From NCBI RefSeq assembly GCF_007830175.1, contig NZ_VLKH01000004.1, positions 248,001 to 312,000 of the forward strand: 64,000 nucleotides of DNA, read 5' to 3'. How positions within the stretch are numbered: the first letter of the stretch is position 1; every line of letters begins with the position of its first letter. The position numbers were made by a program, and so were the translations under genes. The notes under the pieces are model-generated. The model had not been told where the DNA came from, searched no databases, and saw nothing but the letters and a program-made list of their open reading frames with translations. The stretch comes from Sedimentibacter saalensis (lineage in GTDB: Bacteria > Bacillota > Clostridia > Tissierellales > Sedimentibacteraceae). Positions 1,852 through 58,784 of this stretch are shown here, one piece after another.

Positions 1852-2958
1852 ATGGAAAAGGAAGACATGGTTCAAAATGAAAAAGTGCCTTTTTTTGAAA
1901 GCAAAAAAGGTATTATTTTAACAGGCAGTGTTGTGGGTTTCATAGCAGTGCTGCTGGTTGCTCTTGGAAATCCCAAGAACATGGGTTTTTGCATTGCATG
2001 TTTTGAAAGAGACATAGCAGGAGCATTGGGGCTTCACAGAGCAGAAATAGTTCAATACATAAGACCAGAAATAATAGGACTGATTCTAGGAGCTTTTATA
2101 TGTTCCGTAACCGGCAGAGAATTTCAGTCTAAAGGAGGTTCATCACCCATTACAAGGTTTTTCCTTGGTATGGCTGTTATGGTAGGAGCCTTGATGTTTT
2201 TAGGGTGCCCTCTTCGAATGGTACTGAGAATAGGAGGAGGAGACCTGAATGCTGTTGTGGGACTTGTTGGTTTCGCAGCCGGTATAGGTGTTGGAATATT
2301 ATTTTTAAATAAAGGATTTACACTGAAAAGAAATTACAAAACATCTTCATTTGATGGATACATCATGCCTGTATTTGCTCTTTCACTGCTTGCACTTTTA
2401 ATAATAGCTCCGGCATTTATATTCTTCAGCAAAGAAGGTCCAGGCTCCATGTATGCTCCAATGTTCGCATCATTGGCTGCAGGTCTTGTGGTTGGAGCAC
2501 TTGCTCAGAAAACAAGGCTATGTATGGTTGGGGGTATGAGAGACAAAATTATGTTTAATGAAAATTACCTGCTCCTAGGCTTCATAGCAATAATAGTTGT
2601 CACTGCTGCAGGAAACATGGCCATGGGGAATTTCAAACTTGGCTTCACTGAACAGCCCATAGCCCATACAGACGGATTGTGGAACTTCATGGGAATGCTT
2701 CTTGTGGGCTGGGGATCAGTGCTTCTGGGAGGCTGCCCTTTAAGGCAGCTTATCTTATCAGGAGAAGGAAATTCAGACTCAGCGGTTACTGTTATGGGAA
2801 TGATAGCAGGAGCTGCTGTGTGCCACAACTTTGCTCTAGCTTCAAGCGGAAAAGGACCTACAGCAAACGGCCAGACAGCTGTAATAATTTGCCTCGTTAT
2901 GCTGTTAATATTGTCCGTAGCCAATTCAGATCTTGTTAAAAAAAATAATTTGAGGTGA
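1852..2958 (+). CDS. yedE: YedE/YeeE-family membrane transporter, selenium-associated type
   Basis: A 368-residue polytopic membrane protein with about nine or ten hydrophobic helices. It has the internally repeated Cys motifs of the YeeE/YedE sulfur-transport fold: ACFERDIAGALGLH near residue 48, FLGCPLRMV near 121 and LGGCPLRQL near 295. In YeeE (TsuA) such cysteines pass thiosulfate through the membrane. The YedE branch is named for co-occurrence with selenium metabolism and is thought to move a selenium or sulfur species. The next two genes encode a TusA-like carrier and a DUF3343 protein, which is the standard partner set. A strong AGGAGG site precedes the ATG. The transported substrate is inferred from the family, not seen. 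Confidence 0.88.
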   Translation: MEKEDMVQNEKVPFFESKKGIILTGSVVGFIAVLLVALGNPKNMGFCIACFERDIAGALGLHRAEIVQYIRPEIIGLILGAFICSVTGREFQSKGGSSPITRFFLGMAVMVGALMFLGCPLRMVLRIGGGDLNAVVGLVGFAAGIGVGILFLNKGFTLKRNYKTSSFDGYIMPVFALSLLALLIIAPAFIFFSKEGPGSMYAPMFASLAAGLVVGALAQKTRLCMVGGMRDKIMFNENYLLLGFIAIIVVTAAGNMAMGNFKLGFTEQPIAHTDGLWNFMGMLLVGWGSVLLGGCPLRQLILSGEGNSDSAVTVMGMIAGAAVCHNFALASSGKGPTANGQTAVIICLVMLLILSVANSDLVKKNNLR

Positions 2959-2961
2959 AAT

Positions 2962-3165
2962 ATGAAAATAGATACATGCGGAACATCTTGTCCTCAGCCA
3001 GTCCTGATGACAAAAAAAGCACTGGAAACAAATCCTGGTTCTGTTGAGGTAATCGTGGACAACAACACTTCCAAAACAAACGTAAAAAAATTTCTTACAA
3101 GCAAGGGATATTCCGTGGAAATTGAAACTCACGACGACATTTCCACCATTAAAGGATTAAAATGA
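2962..3165 (+). CDS. TusA/SirA-like sulfur or selenium carrier protein
   Basis: A 67-residue single-domain protein with the TusA hallmark CPQP (Cys10) and a second Cys at position 6. The TusA fold carries a persulfide, or possibly a perselenide, on the CPxP cysteine. In many selenium-utilising bacteria the equivalent gene, yedF, encodes about 190-200 residues, with a second DsrE-like domain after the TusA domain. Here only the TusA part is present, and no obvious remnant follows. It starts 3 bases after yedE, and its TGA stop overlaps the next ATG (ATGA), so translation of the three genes is coupled. Confidence 0.88.
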   Translation: MKIDTCGTSCPQPVLMTKKALETNPGSVEVIVDNNTSKTNVKKFLTSKGYSVEIETHDDISTIKGLK

Positions 3166-3407
3166 ATTATACAATAGTATTTTTCACACATTCCGGTGCA
3201 ATCAAATTTGAGAAAAAAATGATTAAAATGAACATTTCCTGTTTGCTGCAGCCAGTACCCAGAAAATTAAGCTCCAGCTGCGGAATTTGTGCAAGAATAA
3301 ATTATGATGGCAGTATAACAGATTTGATTGAATCTGAAATTGAAAGCATTTACAAAGACATCTCAAAAAACCAGTATGAAAGAATGTATGATAGTCACAG
3401 TGCATAA
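3162..3407 (+). CDS. DUF3343 putative Se/S carrier protein
   Basis: An 81-residue protein of the DUF3343 family. It opens with a short beta strand (YTIVFF) followed by the typical PVPRKLSSSCGICARI segment, whose CGIC cysteines are the likely chalcogen-binding residues. The family is found next to yedE/yedF and other selenium genes and is annotated as a putative Se/S carrier. Biochemical proof for this subgroup is limited. It overlaps the upstream TusA-like gene by 4 bases. A factor-independent terminator follows at 3523-3561. Confidence 0.85.
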   Translation: MNYTIVFFTHSGAIKFEKKMIKMNISCLLQPVPRKLSSSCGICARINYDGSITDLIESEIESIYKDISKNQYERMYDSHSA

Positions 3408-52492: not shown

Positions 52493-53158
52493 ATGTTTCA
52501 AACTATCATAGATTTATGGATTAAATATGACTACGTGTATATGAACGGTTTGTTGGGAACTTTGATTTTAGCGGCAATCACCGTCCTGGTTGCCACAATA
52601 ATCGGAACAGTGGTTGCAATTATGAAGCTGTCGAAAATAAAAATTTTGGATTGGATTACCTCTTTGTACATTGGAATACTTCGCGGTACTCCAATCCTGC
52701 TTCAGCTTTATTTTTTCTGGCTGCTTCTGCCTAAAATAGTCCCTTTTGAACTTTCGGATACAGCATGCATCATAATAGCACTCATAGTAAATGCAAGCTC
52801 ATATGTTGCAGAAGTAATACGTGCAGGAATTCAGGCAGTGGACAAAGGCCAGACAGAAGCAGCTAAGAGCCTGGGTCTTTCCAACTACAACACAATGAGA
52901 AAAATAATTCTTCCTCAGGCAATAAAAAACATTCTTCCTGCCCTGGGCAACGAATATATTACAATGGTTAAGCAAACTTCACTGGCATCGGTGTTTTTTG
53001 TGCAGGAACTTATGACAGCATACAAGACTGTACAATCTGCCACATTCCTTGCAATACCTTCACTGATTATTGTAGGAGCCATATACCTTGTTGTGACAAC
53101 TGTATTGACAAAAGCTCTCACCATGTTTGAAAGGAGGCTCAAAGTAAATGAGCAATAG
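52493..53158 (+). CDS. Amino acid ABC transporter permease
   Basis: A 221-residue HisMQ-type permease with five membrane helices. It has the segment [17 protein letters not shown] and the EAA loop [27 protein letters not shown]. It forms the channel with the ATPase whose ATG overlaps its last 11 bases. AAGGAG precedes the start. Amino acid importer of the PAAT family; direction inward because a binding protein is present. Confidence 0.94.
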
Positions 53159-53885
53159 GGAACTTATACGCGTTGAAGATTTGTGCAAATCATTTGGAAA
53201 ACTTCAGGTTCTTAAAAACATCACAGAAAGCATTCATGAAGGAGAGGTTGTGTCCATAATAGGCCCTTCAGGAAGCGGCAAAAGCACATTTTTGCGCTGT
53301 CTGAACCTCCTTGAAAAACCAACAGGAGGTAAAGTTTTTTTTGAAGGCGTAGACCTTGCCGGCAAAAAAGTCAACGTAGACAAGCACAGACAAAAAATAG
53401 GAATGGTTTTTCAGCTGTTCAATGTTTTTCCACACCTTACGGTGCTTGAAAACATAACTCTGACTCCCATACTTGAAAAAAAAGTTCCTGCTGCTGAGGC
53501 AGAAAAACAAGCCTGCGAGCTTTTGGACCGTGTAGATCTTCTTGATAAAAAGAATGAATACCCTACAAAGCTGTCTGGCGGACAAAAACAAAGGCTTGCC
53601 ATAGTCAGGGCTCTTGCCATGGAGCCTGACGTTGTACTGTTTGACGAACCCACAAGCGCCCTGGACCCCGAAATGGTTAAGGAAGTTCTTGATGTAATTA
53701 AGGATCTGGCGGTATCAGGAATGACAATTGTGATTGTTACTCATGAAATGGCTTTTGCCAGAGAAGTGAGCGACCGTGTCTTGTTCATGGCAGATGGTAT
53801 CATACAGGAACAAGGAACACCGGATTTTATATTCGACCATGCAAAAAATCCAAGAACAATTGAGTTTTTAAGCAAGGTTCTTTAA
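53148..53885 (+). CDS. Amino acid ABC transporter ATP-binding protein
   Basis: A 245-residue GlnQ-type ATPase. It has Walker [10 protein letters not shown], the signature LSGGQKQR, Walker [13 protein letters not shown] and VTHEM with the switch His. It starts at ATG 53148 inside the permease gene (11-base overlap), so translation is coupled. It energises the binding-protein-dependent importer encoded upstream. The amidohydrolase begins 12 bases later. Confidence 0.95.
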
Positions 53886-53897
53886 GAGGAGGATGAA

Positions 53898-55334
53898 GTG
53901 ACTGATTTAGAATTTATTGAAAAAATAATTGATGAAAAAAAGCAACTGATTATTGATGTAAGCCATAAAATATGGAATTATGCAGAGCTTCCCTATGCTG
54001 AAACAAAATCAGCTTCACTTTTATGTGATGTGCTCAAGCAGGAAGGTTTTAAGATAACTTTGGAAGTTGCTGAAATTCCAACTGCCTTTACTGCTGTATT
54101 TGGAACAGGCACACCTGTTTTCGGATTTCTCGGAGAATATGACGCTCTTGACATTTTAAGCCAGGAGGCAGGAAATCCTCATAAATGTCCAATAAATGAA
54201 GGTGCTCCGGGACACGGCTGCGGACACAATCTCCTTGGAGCAGGTTCCCTTGGTGCTGCTCTTGCAGCAAAGGAATACTTAAAGGAAAATAATCTTAATG
54301 GAACAGTTATTTATTATGGCTGTGCTGCAGAGGAAGGGGCAGGGGCAAAACAGTTCATGGCCAGGGCAGGACTTTTTAACGGCGTTGATTTTATTTACAC
54401 ATGGCATCCGGCAACAACAAACGAAGTTCAGTCCGACCGTTCTGTTGCAATAATGGGAGCTAATTTTGAATTCAAAGGGCTCACTTCTCATGCAGGCGGC
54501 TCGCCCCATTTAGGAAGAAGCGCCCTTGATGCTGCAGAACTCATGAGCGTTGGTGTCAACTACTTAAGAGAGCACATCATAGACCAGGCACGAGTTCATT
54601 ATGCTTATGCAGATGCTGGTGGAACAGCCCCAAATGTTGTTCAGGACCACGCTCTTGTGAAATATGAAGTTCGTTCACCTAAGGTAAAGCAGGTTAAAGA
54701 ATTGTTTGAACGCGTTGTGGATGTTGCTAAAGGTGCAGCTATGATGACAGGAACAACAATGAACTATGAGGTAACAATGGCATTTTCTGATTACATAACA
54801 AACAGTGCTCTTGCAAAAGTTGCAGATGAATGTCTTCAGGAAATTGGTGCTCCAATGTGGGATGATGAAGATTATGCTCTTGCAAAACTATACCTTTCAT
54901 CATACAGCCAGAACACACTTAATAATATCAAGGAAGAAATAGCTGAAATATATGGTGACGACAAAGTTGAAGAAATTCTGGCAAAGCCACTTGACAGCAT
55001 CATTCATCCATATGATGAGAAAAACAAAAAATACAGCACCGGCTCCACAGATGTGGGAGATGTGTGCTATGCTGTACCAACTCTTAACTTTCTCATTGCA
55101 ACTGCATGCGTTGGAAATGTTGGGCACACATGGCAAATGACAGGTCAGTCAAACAGCAGCATATCAGACAAAGGTCTCATAACTGCTGCCAAGGCAATGG
55201 CATTAGCAGCCATAAGAACCATGAACATGCCTGATGTTATAGAAGAAGCAAAAAATATAGTGCTGAAGCAAAATGGAGGCGCTTACATCTGTCCTCTTCC
55301 TGACTACGTTAAACCACCTATTGGAAGATACTAA
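53898..55334 (+). CDS. M20 family amidohydrolase (AbgB-like)
   Basis: A 478-residue M20 metallohydrolase of the p-aminobenzoyl-glutamate hydrolase B / amidohydrolase kind. It has GTPVFGFLGEYDALD, GAPGHGCGHNLLGAGSLGAALA (metal ligand His) and YGCAAEEGAGAKQFMARAG (catalytic Glu pair). It opens with GTG 53898 after GAGGAGG. It is last in the amino acid transporter operon, so imported N-acyl or peptide-like amino acids may be deacylated here. The substrate is not shown. Confidence 0.9.
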   Translation: MTDLEFIEKIIDEKKQLIIDVSHKIWNYAELPYAETKSASLLCDVLKQEGFKITLEVAEIPTAFTAVFGTGTPVFGFLGEYDALDILSQEAGNPHKCPINEGAPGHGCGHNLLGAGSLGAALAAKEYLKENNLNGTVIYYGCAAEEGAGAKQFMARAGLFNGVDFIYTWHPATTNEVQSDRSVAIMGANFEFKGLTSHAGGSPHLGRSALDAAELMSVGVNYLREHIIDQARVHYAYADAGGTAPNVVQDHALVKYEVRSPKVKQVKELFERVVDVAKGAAMMTGTTMNYEVTMAFSDYITNSALAKVADECLQEIGAPMWDDEDYALAKLYLSSYSQNTLNNIKEEIAEIYGDDKVEEILAKPLDSIIHPYDEKNKKYSTGSTDVGDVCYAVPTLNFLIATACVGNVGHTWQMTGQSNSSISDKGLITAAKAMALAAIRTMNMPDVIEEAKNIVLKQNGGAYICPLPDYVKPPIGRY

Positions 55335-55363
55335 AATAAATGCCGCAAATGCGGCATTTATTT
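55334..55363. terminator. Bidirectional terminator between the M20 gene and bcp
   Basis: AAATAAATGCCGC and GCGGCATTTATTT form a perfect 13-bp stem with an AAAT loop between the convergent genes. Confidence 0.8.
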
Positions 55364-55826
55364 AATCAGACAACTCCTTAAGATCTTCAAGTACTTTCTC
55401 CACATGATTATTTACTTTTACTTTGGAATAAATTTTTCTTACTATTCCTTGTTTATCAATTATGAAAGTTGTTCTCTCAACACCCATGGTCTTTTTACCA
55501 TACATGTTTTTTTCCTTCCACACATCAAAGGCCTTAATGACTTCTAAATCAACATCACTGGCAAGATCAAATTTCAAATTGTATTTTTCTGTAAACTTCT
55601 TATGACTGTCAAGACTGTCCTTGCTTACCCCCACAACAACTGCTTCAAGTTTTTCAAAGTCATTCAGGTGTTCGTTGAAATCAACGGCTTCATTTGTTCA
55701 GCCCGATGTCATGTCCTTGGAGTAAAAATAAAAAACTACATTTTTACCTCTAAGATCAGATAATTTAATTGTTCTTCCGTTTAACTCCAAAAAAACATCA
55801 GGAGCAGCATCTCCTATATTTATCAT
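55362..55826 (-). CDS. bcp: Selenocysteine-containing peroxiredoxin (Bcp/PrxQ)
   Basis: A single frame runs from ATG 55826 to the stop at 55362, 154 residues, the usual Bcp length, interrupted only by TGA at 55700-55698. Translation around it is YFYSKDMTSG-[TGA]-TNEAVDFNEHL, which aligns with the Bcp active site YPKDxTPGCTxEA, so TGA replaces the peroxidatic Cys at residue 43. Sequence on both sides is normal Bcp (DVFLELNGRTIKLSDLRGKNVV; VGVSKDSLDSHKKF). A small hairpin 11 bases after TGA can be the SECIS. The usual resolving Cys five residues on is Val. It reduces peroxides with thioredoxin. Sec machinery genes are not in the window. Confidence 0.88.
55673..55686 (-). other. Candidate SECIS hairpin of the selenoprotein gene
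   Basis: CGTTG-ATTT-CAACG on the minus strand is a perfect small stem-loop beginning 11 bases after TGA 55698. Bacterial SECIS elements sit directly 3' of the UGA, inside the coding region. The match to a SelB-binding loop is not proven. Confidence 0.5.
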
Positions 55827-55983
55827 AATAGCCTCCTTTTTTTATGATATTATAACATATTCGTGAATATTTTGAGAAAAATAATTACATACTTTAAAAC
55901 AAACAAATAATATTTGGAATAACTGCTATTATATGTTATAGTTAATGAACTATGAAAACAATTTTGATGAACGGAGAATATCA

Positions 55984-56838
55984 TTGAGAAAAATTATTAT
56001 ATCAACAGAAAGCGGGTCCGATCTACCATTGGATCTAATTAAGCGTCACAATATTCAGGTTGTTCCAATGCATGTTATAATGGACGAGCAAAATTATCCA
56101 GATGGTTCAATACCTGTTACAATGGTTTACGATTATTACCAACAGACAAAAAAAATACCCTCCACATCGTCAACAAACCCAAATGAATATGAAAGTTTCT
56201 TCCGCAAAATTAATGAAGATAACCCGGGCTGTGCAATAATTCACATTGCATATTCCTCAAAAGCTTCAAGCACATATCAAAATGCTTCCATAGCAATCAA
56301 GGAATTTGACAACATTTACTTGGTAGACTCCATGAATGTGTCGGGCGGTGAAGCTGCAATTATTGTAAAATCAGCTGAGCTGGCAGAAAAAAGCAACTGC
56401 ACGGAACCAGAAAAACTAGTTGAAGAAATACGAACATTTGTCTCACGAGCACGTGCCTCCTTTATTCCGGGAAATCTGGAGTACTTAAAGGCAGGTGGAC
56501 GTGTATCAAACGCTGCATATCTGGGAGCATCTCTGCTACAGCTTAAGCCCCTCATTGAAATTATAGAAGGAAAATTAGTATCTACAAAAAAATTCCGCGG
56601 TAAAATGAGACGTATAGCAGAAAATTACATAAACGAATTTATAAACCATTACAATTTAGAAAAAGACAGAATCTTTCTTTTGTATTCTCTTGGCCTTGAT
56701 GAAGAAATAAAAGTGCAAATGGAACAGATTGTGAAAGAAAATAATTTCAATAAAGTTCAATGGATACAGACCGGGTGTGTAATTTCCACACACAGCGGAC
56801 CAGGAGCAATTGGAATAGCAGGTTTTGAAATACAGTAA
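55984..56838 (+). CDS. DegV family fatty-acid-binding protein
   Basis: A 284-residue DegV protein. It has IIISTESGSDLPLDLIKRHNI, VPMHVIMDEQNYPDG, SSTNPNEYESFF (the TSxPS-type lipid-carboxylate loop), FIPGNLEYLKAGGRVSNAAY and VISTHSGPGAIGIAG. These bind the fatty-acid head group; FakB proteins deliver fatty acids to the FakA kinase. TTG 55984 is chosen because GGAG lies 8 bases upstream and the protein then begins RKIIISTES, as in the family; an ATG 13 codons upstream has no site. FakA is not in the window. Confidence 0.92.
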   Translation: MRKIIISTESGSDLPLDLIKRHNIQVVPMHVIMDEQNYPDGSIPVTMVYDYYQQTKKIPSTSSTNPNEYESFFRKINEDNPGCAIIHIAYSSKASSTYQNASIAIKEFDNIYLVDSMNVSGGEAAIIVKSAELAEKSNCTEPEKLVEEIRTFVSRARASFIPGNLEYLKAGGRVSNAAYLGASLLQLKPLIEIIEGKLVSTKKFRGKMRRIAENYINEFINHYNLEKDRIFLLYSLGLDEEIKVQMEQIVKENNFNKVQWIQTGCVISTHSGPGAIGIAGFEIQ

Positions 56839-56873
56839 CACATAATTGTCAACATGAGTATCATTTAATACAT

Positions 56874-56912
56874 AAAAGAATGCATTAATGTCAAACATTA
56901 ATGCATTCTTTT
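56874..56912. terminator. Bidirectional terminator after degV
   Basis: AAAAGAATGCATTAATGT and ACATTAATGCATTCTTTT form a perfect 18-bp stem with a 3-base loop between the convergent genes. Confidence 0.92.
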
Positions 56913-58784
56913 TTATTGTTTTTCTCTTATATACAGTGCATCCGGATTAATCCAGTAATTTATTCTATCTTCACGGGTATCCAAAGAAATGCTGAGATCC
57001 CTTAAAACAAGCATTACTTCAACTTCAGGAGTTTCAAATTTAATACTCATGTCATCAAGGGGCACTTTTTGCGAAGATTCCATGTTCCCAGGAGGATATT
57101 TTTCGATAATCTTGTCAATATATGTGTTCAAGTCATCTTCTATAATCGTTCTGCTGTTTAGCATAATTTTTAAATCCGGTAAATTGTCAGGAGGAGTATA
57201 GGTCCAATAAACATCATACGTTCCCCTTTTTCCTTTTACTGTTATTCCACCATCCTGGTTTTTTTCGTAATAATCCTGAAAGCTTACAGCCCAGTTATAG
57301 TTGCTCACATCAACCGCCACCTGCTCGCGATACAGTGAGGTGCTCATATAAAAACCTGGAGATCCTTCATAAAAATCATCAGGCTGAGGCCAGATTTGTT
57401 CAAATCCCATTTTTGATTTAAATGTATTGCTGTTCTGAAGATCTCTGTCAAACCATGATGGCAGCTTTGCTTCATTGGTACCTGCAAGGAAACTTACAGC
57501 ATCAGTGATTGATTCCCTGACATTCTTATCGGGTTCAGCTGCTGCCGGAATCAATTTGTCGTCTTCAAGCATGCCTTCATTATTAAGAAGATTTTCAAGT
57601 CTGTTTATTTGGGCAGTTACAGGAAGTGCGTTGTATCCCACAAAAGGCAGGACCGTTATTGCAGCCAGAGAACAAACAACTGCAACAATTCCTATATGAG
57701 CTTTTGACTTTTTAATAATTAAAAGTATTGCTGCAAAGAGAGCTGCTACCCAAACCACAATAAAGAAATATTCAGTTGTTTTAAGTCCGTATTTTTGAAG
57801 CTGCAATACAAAAGCCCAGGCTTCAAAGGCCAGAATAAAAAGCACAGCCACAGGATAAACTTTTTTGTAAAATTTAGCTATAGCCGTTTCGTTGTGAGTG
57901 ACCATTATGTGAAGCCATATTCCGCTTACTGCAAACGACGTTGCTATTGAAGAAAGTCGAATGAAATCTGCTCTCATTCCTCCTACGATTGTCTTCCCTG
58001 CCCAAAGCAATAGCACAACTGTCATGGCAAGGACTATGGGCACCATGATGTATTGAAACAACACTTCAACGAACTTTGGCTGTTTCTGGGCTACAGCACG
58101 GTGTTCATCAACATTACCCTTGCTGAAATCCGGAAAATACCCAAGAAAAATTGTGAAAGCTAAAAAACCGCTTATAGTTCCGATATACATGTAGACTTTG
58201 CTGCTCATTTCTCTGTAAAGCAGTGCTCTTATGGCCCCTGCAACAGCAGATGTTCCGCTCATAATAACTATGCCGTAAAGAATGGCAATAAAAAATGCCT
58301 TGTGCGTCATGAAATACGAATGAGCGAAATCTGATTGGTCTTTTGGGTATCCTGCCATTACAATAAATGTCAGGAAACTTATAAGCATTAAAACTCCTAC
58401 CCGGGATGCTGCAATTATTGAAATAGTTTTATAACGGATTCCGGTAAATTCAGGGTCAGTTCCACCAAAAGCATATAAAAGCAGAAAAGCTGAAGCTGCA
58501 GCTAAAACACCAACAACATTTGCTGTCATGAAAGACTTTTTATCTCCTATGCGGCTTTTTGCAGCAGTTATTGCAGCCAGACTCAATATTGCTCCAAGTG
58601 CAAATGCCCAATGCAGGCAGTTAAACAGAAAATTGTAGGATTCCTGCTCAGGCCAGTCAAGATGAATCCTTACAATTGTAACCAGTGAAAAGGCCAGTGC
58701 ATTTGCAATAGCAGCAGGAAAAGTTTGAAAAGATTTTACTGCACCCTTTTGAATTTGCGAAACAGCTCTTTTAAAAACATTCAT
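56913..58784 (-). CDS. DUF4153 domain-containing membrane protein
   Basis: A 623-residue protein with about 12 to 13 membrane helices in residues 15-400 (DUF4153 pattern), followed by an extracytoplasmic tail (about 410-623) rich in Asp and aromatic residues, ending in ESSQKVPLDDMSIKFETPEVE. Function unknown. ATG 58784 is preferred because GGGAGGTG lies just before it; an upstream ATG 58808 would overlap that site and read through it. A 46-residue Lys-rich gene lies just upstream in the same direction. Confidence 0.83.
   Translation of the reverse strand: MNVFKRAVSQIQKGAVKSFQTFPAAIANALAFSLVTIVRIHLDWPEQESYNFLFNCLHWAFALGAILSLAAITAAKSRIGDKKSFMTANVVGVLAAASAFLLLYAFGGTDPEFTGIRYKTISIIAASRVGVLMLISFLTFIVMAGYPKDQSDFAHSYFMTHKAFFIAILYGIVIMSGTSAVAGAIRALLYREMSSKVYMYIGTISGFLAFTIFLGYFPDFSKGNVDEHRAVAQKQPKFVEVLFQYIMVPIVLAMTVVLLLWAGKTIVGGMRADFIRLSSIATSFAVSGIWLHIMVTHNETAIAKFYKKVYPVAVLFILAFEAWAFVLQLQKYGLKTTEYFFIVVWVAALFAAILLIIKKSKAHIGIVAVVCSLAAITVLPFVGYNALPVTAQINRLENLLNNEGMLEDDKLIPAAAEPDKNVRESITDAVSFLAGTNEAKLPSWFDRDLQNSNTFKSKMGFEQIWPQPDDFYEGSPGFYMSTSLYREQVAVDVSNYNWAVSFQDYYEKNQDGGITVKGKRGTYDVYWTYTPPDNLPDLKIMLNSRTIIEDDLNTYIDKIIEKYPPGNMESSQKVPLDDMSIKFETPEVEVMLVLRDLSISLDTREDRINYWINPDALYIREKQ

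Follow-up and report, generated by a model that had tools for sequence, protein, structure and literature searches.

The subject of this analysis is a bcp/prxQ gene on the minus strand of a 64,000-nucleotide stretch of the Sedimentibacter saalensis genome (contig NZ_VLKH01000004.1, positions 248,001 to 312,000), hereafter the window, in whose numbering its coordinates are given. The frame of the gene runs from an ATG at 55826-55824 to a TAA stop at 55364-55362 and contains a single in-frame TGA at 55700-55698, i.e., codon 43. A first-pass annotation, made from the letters alone, had read it as an unannotated selenoprotein gene with TGA in place of the catalytic cysteine; its coordinates, when re-read, agree, and the argument turns on three features:

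55362..55826, minus strand: bcp/prxQ gene, predicted to encode a selenocysteine (Sec)-containing protein of 154 residues with TGA43 read as Sec; the range includes the stop codon
55698..55700, minus strand: TGA codon 43, the putative Sec codon, at the peroxidatic cysteine position
55673..55686, minus strand: candidate selenocysteine insertion sequence (SECIS) element, the stem-loop CGTTG-ATTT-CAACG that begins 11 nt downstream of the TGA

The read-through product and its family

Without readthrough, the list of open reading frames in the window (lower limit 80 residues) shows at this locus only a 90-residue fragment starting from a GTG (55634-55362), exactly the remnant that the first-pass annotation had expected automatic tools to call, and it is plausible that such tools left the gene unannotated. 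A window-wide scan returned 75 TGAs lying between open stretches, among which bcp alone looked, by eye, like a split gene; the other places were likewise judged by eye, and the end of yedE was checked and is an ordinary stop.

The sequence on either side of the TGA is intact Bcp, with neither a second stop nor a frameshift, and the motif around the codon reads YSKDMTSG-TGA-TNEAVDF. The read-through product matches the Pfam AhpC-TSA domain (PF00578) over residues 4-131 with 132.3 bits (cut-off 26) and the Bcp model PRK09437 with 133.7 bits, narrowly below its equivalog cut-off of 140. All 11 NCBIfam models listed for the 154-residue protein stay below their cut-offs. Its AlphaFold model, built on a 32-row alignment, has a mean predicted local distance difference test score of 95.2, and the five best Protein Data Bank matches to that model are all Bcp/PrxQ-type chains, with template modelling (TM) scores of 0.91-0.96 by query; the top match, 9a4d, is an integrative model and the next ones are crystal structures. 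By domain, profile, fold and active-site residues, the protein is a PrxQ/Bcp peroxiredoxin. The position of the resolving cysteine, five residues after the peroxidatic one (+5), is occupied by Val48, and there is no cysteine in the whole protein, which places it outside the 2-Cys PrxQ type. Among the AhpC/TSA paralogues of the same genome, one (L002) keeps the peroxidatic cysteine, and three on contigs C1, C3 and C9 (L003, L004 and L005) have serine there, encoded by TCG, TCT and TCA, and may be non-catalytic.

Conservation of codon 43 and the selenocysteine pathway

For comparison, 155 loci were aligned (30 + 80 + 28 + 17, the 80 being the best 80 of 156); 17 of them were hand-chosen, largely for the presence of TGA, so that the frequencies given here are not population estimates. 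Nine rows scoring below 250 were dropped, namely eight distant peroxiredoxins (L171-L177 and L183) and one cysteine form (L182), and removal of two duplicates left 144 distinct homologues. All eight of the distant peroxiredoxins carry TGA at the peroxidatic codon. Of the 144, 129 have a cysteine codon (TGT or TGC) at position 43 and 15 have TGA; these 15 are distinct genes and span at least five family codes. Thr40 and Arg118 are invariant (144/144). In only two homologues does TGA fall elsewhere in the aligned region, each time two residues short of the alignment end (lengths 152 and 154), where it looks like an ordinary stop. Hence, the earlier proposal that the TGA lies exactly on the peroxidatic cysteine of Bcp/PrxQ, and is not a randomly placed nonsense codon, is borne out by the alignment of Sec and cysteine forms that it had called for.

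The TGA and cysteine forms also differ in their other cysteines. The +5 resolving cysteine is present in none of the 15 TGA forms as against 112 of the 129 cysteine forms, and all 15 TGA forms are devoid of any other cysteine in the aligned region. Seventeen of the cysteine forms, some of them close to Sec forms, also lack the +5 cysteine, and its loss therefore does not need Sec. A tree of 147 rows (17 of them Sec) implies nine changes for Sec, at least three of them forced, and the 144-row tree implies eight; both trees leave gain versus loss of Sec unsettled.

The two closest orthologues, from congeners (loci L028 and L029), are 92 and 84% identical to the window protein and carry the same TGA in intact frames, and across the three congeneric copies there is no second stop and no frameshift. 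Thus, close homologues with an intact cysteine beside a decaying copy, which the first-pass annotation had named as the finding that would undo it, are not what the genus presents. After the TGA, the ratio of nonsynonymous to synonymous substitution rates (dN/dS) is about 0.06, 0.10 and 0.09 in the three congener pairs. The longest unchanged run begins at codon 42 in two of these pairs, and in none of the three is its length significant by permutation (p 0.09, 0.30 and 0.45).

Across 120 related genomes, a bcp match above 100 bits occurs in 37, of which 13 show a single internal TGA, always at codon 43. A selB match above cut-off is found in 102 of the 120 and in 12 of the 13 genomes with a TGA-containing bcp. 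The thirteenth (G022, 81% complete) has no such match, and its selA is truncated by a contig end (base 5, profile positions 1-435 of 455) at the point where selB would be expected next. The other 24 genomes with a bcp match are all cysteine-coded, and four of them are without a selB match (G081, merely 71% complete, G082, G106 and G118). Elsewhere, a further genome with a TGA-containing bcp (G377) has selA and selB, and the genome of locus L136, also with a TGA-containing bcp and searched for selA of the two, has it. In a class-wide draw, 64 of 391 genomes match at E ≤1e-24, with a TGA inside the match in five; eight of the 66 match rows have one TAA or TAG, and the five of these that were fetched gave 150-residue alignments with no internal stop.

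The genome of the window itself (23 contigs, 99.22% complete, 6.49% estimated contamination) encodes a full Sec pathway. The first-pass annotation had called for a search for selA, selB, selC and selD and regarded the absence of selB or selC as fatal; all are present, with selD (394.7 bits), selA (618.8), selB (383.1) and tRNA-Sec (63.2 bits) clustered at 115.9-125.8 kb of contig C5 and selB starting 36 bases past selA. ARAGORN also calls the tRNA as Sec, with anticodon tca. An in-frame TGA occurs in selD itself, in the context ASGUAAKIG, and in the two grdA genes of the genome, in the context CFVUT, both of them known Sec sites. Elsewhere TGA is an ordinary stop, ending three of the 19 window genes checked, yedE and a yedF-like gene included. 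These two belong to a selenium-related group at the other end of the window:

1852..3407, plus strand: genes for a YedE-type selenium transporter, a YedF/TusA-like protein and a Se/S carrier-like protein (open reading frames with profile matches; context, outside bcp)

The transporter matches TIGR04112 with 521.5 bits (cut-off 200) and PF04143 above cut-off; the YedF/TusA-like protein matches PF01206 above cut-off and TIGR03527 with 63.3 bits, below the cut-off of 110; and the carrier-like protein matches PF11823 above cut-off and has no NCBIfam match.

The flanks of bcp hold three further candidate features:

55832..55838, minus strand: Shine-Dalgarno-like AAGGAGG before the bcp ATG, read from the sequence
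55849..55878, minus strand: promoter-like site TTCTCA-18-TATAAT, its second hexamer preceded by TG, a consensus match only
55338..55359, minus strand: inverted repeat AAATGCCGC-ATTT-GCGGCATTT after the bcp stop, found by eye

Equivalents of the ribosome site lie at about the same place in both congeners (AAGGAGG in L028, CAGGAGG in L029), and TGTTATAAT of the promoter-like site is present in both too, the promoter scan having returned seven such sites in 701 bases against 3.3 expected. The inverted repeat is possibly a terminator between convergent genes, and it is absent from the output of the terminator scan. In L028 the sequence TTATAAT-A-ATCATAA (1975-1989, minus strand) overlies the -10 and resembles the PerR box consensus; its window counterpart (55842-55855, minus strand) is shorter by one base, and the L029 version has one mismatch more. 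In the congeners (L028 167-1482, L029 665-1471), bcp is followed by a gene for an iron-sulfur (Fe-S) protein, weakly QueG/reductive dehalogenase-like with scores below cut-offs, and in L028 this is followed in turn by a gene for what is, by eye, an MsrB-like protein. In the window neither an Fe-S nor an MsrB-like gene follows bcp, and the protein of its own genome that comes nearest to the Fe-S protein is 35% identical.

The downstream stem-loop and competing explanations

The hairpin that the first-pass annotation placed 11 bases after the TGA stands as to position and sequence; it does not have the loop G and the minimum free energy (MFE) of the bacterial SECIS (bSECIS) model when examined with a stem scan of our own, which considers unbulged stems and is simpler than bSECISearch. 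As given in excerpts of PMC13188914, the published model comprises a loop of 3-9 nt, a stem of 4-16 bp, a spacing of 16-37 nt, a G at loop position 1 or 2 together with an MFE of at most -7.5, and a subset of putative bSECIS elements falls outside it. The loop of 4 nt, the stem of 5 bp and the spacing of 16 nt all fit. The stem-loop folds at -5.0 kcal/mol (the stem alone at -3.5) and is identical in both congeners at 14 of 14 nt; taken alone it does not stand out clearly from chance, with z -1.48 and 13 of 200 shuffles folding equally well or better. The TGA forms as a group differ from the cysteine forms in the RNA downstream, in comparisons that ignore relatedness: a stem of -2 kcal/mol or lower in an allowed place occurs in 14/15 versus 74/129 (Fisher p 0.009), and the mean z of the downstream fold is -1.56 (n=15) versus -0.34 (n=129; p 1.6e-6), or versus -0.32 for the cysteine forms without a resolving cysteine (n=17; p 1.4e-4).

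Several observations weigh against selenocysteine at codon 43. The stem-loop, with its loop AUUU, lacks the required loop G and MFE of the bSECIS model. In the stem scan, the two grdA genes of the genome fail too (best +0.5 and +0.6), and selD passes (-10.1). A stem at or below -7.5 with a loop G is found in only one of 15 TGA forms and six of 129 cysteine forms, and a loop G with energy below 0 in 11 of 15 and 73 of 129, respectively; because of these counts, the bSECIS model is a poor separator of TGA from cysteine forms. Rfam reports no SECIS element in 53000-57000 (E ≤1) or in 55600-55760 (E ≤10), its matches at both stretches being all far below gathering scores. Upstream of the TGA, the dN/dS values of the three congener pairs rise to about 0.58, 0.34 and 0.31, so that this part of bcp is less constrained than the part downstream. 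Position 36, the first of the PxxxTxxC motif, is Ser in the window copy and Pro in both congeners; Ser occurs there in 19 of the 141 other homologues, so that Pro is not strictly defining. Sec and the absence of the resolving cysteine are strongly linked by counts, but the link is not significant when ancestry is allowed for (five independent pairs, median p 0.25). Lastly, bcp lies on contig C4 and the sel genes on C5, and given the 6.49% contamination their co-residence rests on the assembly.

Some of these points would suit a pseudogene in decay, its catalytic codon hit by a nonsense mutation, which would account for the weaker constraint before the TGA, the change from Pro36 to Ser and the missing downstream partner gene that both congeners possess. 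Yet three species of the genus share this TGA and have no further internal stop or frameshift in the gene, dN/dS after it is low, the -10 and ribosome-site sequences are retained in the congeners and 15 distinct homologues carry TGA at the identical codon, all of which makes decay highly unlikely. An error of assembly or sequencing might be suspected in draft assemblies such as these, but three Sedimentibacter genomes share the TGA, and 15 distinct genes spanning at least five family codes have it at the same codon, which reduces the probability of an error practically to nil.

The remaining alternatives concern how the UGA is read. Were it reassigned genome-wide to another amino acid, TGA43 would be an ordinary sense codon and the frame would indeed be open; against this, UGA terminates three of the 19 window genes checked, the part of the genome scanned for tca tRNAs holds a tRNA-Sec and the in-frame TGAs of selD and grdA are at their known Sec sites, so that reassignment has a negligible probability. 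Alternatively, the UGA might serve mainly as a selenium-dependent switch, with low selenium yielding a 42-residue peptide or the 90-residue fragment from GTG 55634. A GTG-started frame exists, but the fragment would have no catalytic site, and conservation extends over the entire protein on either side of the TGA, making such a switch extremely unlikely. The view that bcp encodes a Sec-containing PrxQ/Bcp peroxiredoxin, with UGA43 decoded as Sec, is very probably correct; as the first-pass annotation had claimed, a bcp gene with TGA at the catalytic cysteine is supported as a selenoprotein gene by the full Sec pathway, the TGA of the congeners and the strong purifying selection after it.

Predicted catalytic cycle and relation to known selenoproteins

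From the complete Sec pathway and the conservation we infer Sec insertion, in which ribosomes meeting the UGA at codon 43 would not terminate, SelB and Sec-tRNA(Sec) instead inserting Sec, possibly aided by RNA structure just downstream of the UGA. Sec43, which would share the usual peroxiredoxin active site with Thr40 and Arg118, would then attack H2O2 or an organic peroxide and become a selenenic acid, an attack and product that belong to general peroxiredoxin chemistry. Because the window protein has no cysteine at all, and the TGA forms have neither the +5 cysteine nor any other in the aligned region, the bcp product is probably a one-Sec peroxidase free of cysteine that depends on an outside thiol, such as thioredoxin, for its recycling; insertion, peroxidase activity and recycling are all predicted here from sequence. 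The wider proposition, that Sec in PrxQ is coupled to the absence of a resolving cysteine (a cysteine-free peroxidase resolved by an outside thiol) and that the SelB of Sedimentibacter reads UGA with a short stem-loop devoid of the loop G, is put forward tentatively, as somewhat short of an even chance.

Gene callers that treat UGA as a stop see a 90-residue fragment and miss the enzyme, and the peroxide defence of these anaerobes may be under-counted. The lineage pairs cysteine and Sec forms, with and without a resolving cysteine, and may be seen as a test of what selenium buys a peroxidase, just as the weak stem-loop of the window gene offers a test of the strictness of bacterial SECIS rules.

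The Sec peroxiredoxin of COG1225, with the motif TXXU, already figures among the 'known selenoproteins' of a 2005 Sargasso Sea survey, with 43 sequences (PMC1088965), and excerpts of later accounts place it under COG1225 (Bcp) (a 2022 review, PMC9312934), give its motif as PxxxTxxU (a 2026 review, PMC13188914) and count 12 Sec peroxiredoxins and five cysteine-to-Sec conversions (a 2006 survey, PMC1794560). Sedimentibacter is unnamed in the text of the two reviews (PMC9312934, PMC13188914); in the literature searched, no paper joins selenocysteine, peroxiredoxin and Sedimentibacter, and no title among the matches listed is on Sec-PrxQ. In light of this, the proposal of the first-pass annotation holds as to a Sec peroxidase gene and is softened as to novelty, the family being already known as selenoproteins.

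The window protein belongs to the same family as this Sec peroxiredoxin and would have Sec at the same TxxU place (PMC1088965, PMC9312934, PMC13188914, in excerpts); it differs in the stem-loop of its gene, which is without the loop G, and in its loss of every cysteine, a feature not discussed in the excerpts of those accounts. With the cysteine forms of PrxQ/Bcp it shares fold and sequence match, at TM 0.92 for Xanthomonas campestris PrxQ (5iiz) and 0.93 for the Burkholderia ambifaria protein (5enu), differing from both in the predicted Sec for the peroxidatic cysteine and in having no resolving cysteine at +5. PrxU (NCBIfam NF040737), the name of the Eubacterium acidaminophilum Sec peroxiredoxin that the reviews cite, is of the same superfamily and a different subfamily, the window protein scoring 53 bits against its cut-off of 270. 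A further likeness is that PrxU, going by a reference title in PMC13188914, contains Sec and comes from a strict anaerobe. The window bcp adds a new member, from Sedimentibacter, to the already known Sec-Bcp kind and is not a new family.
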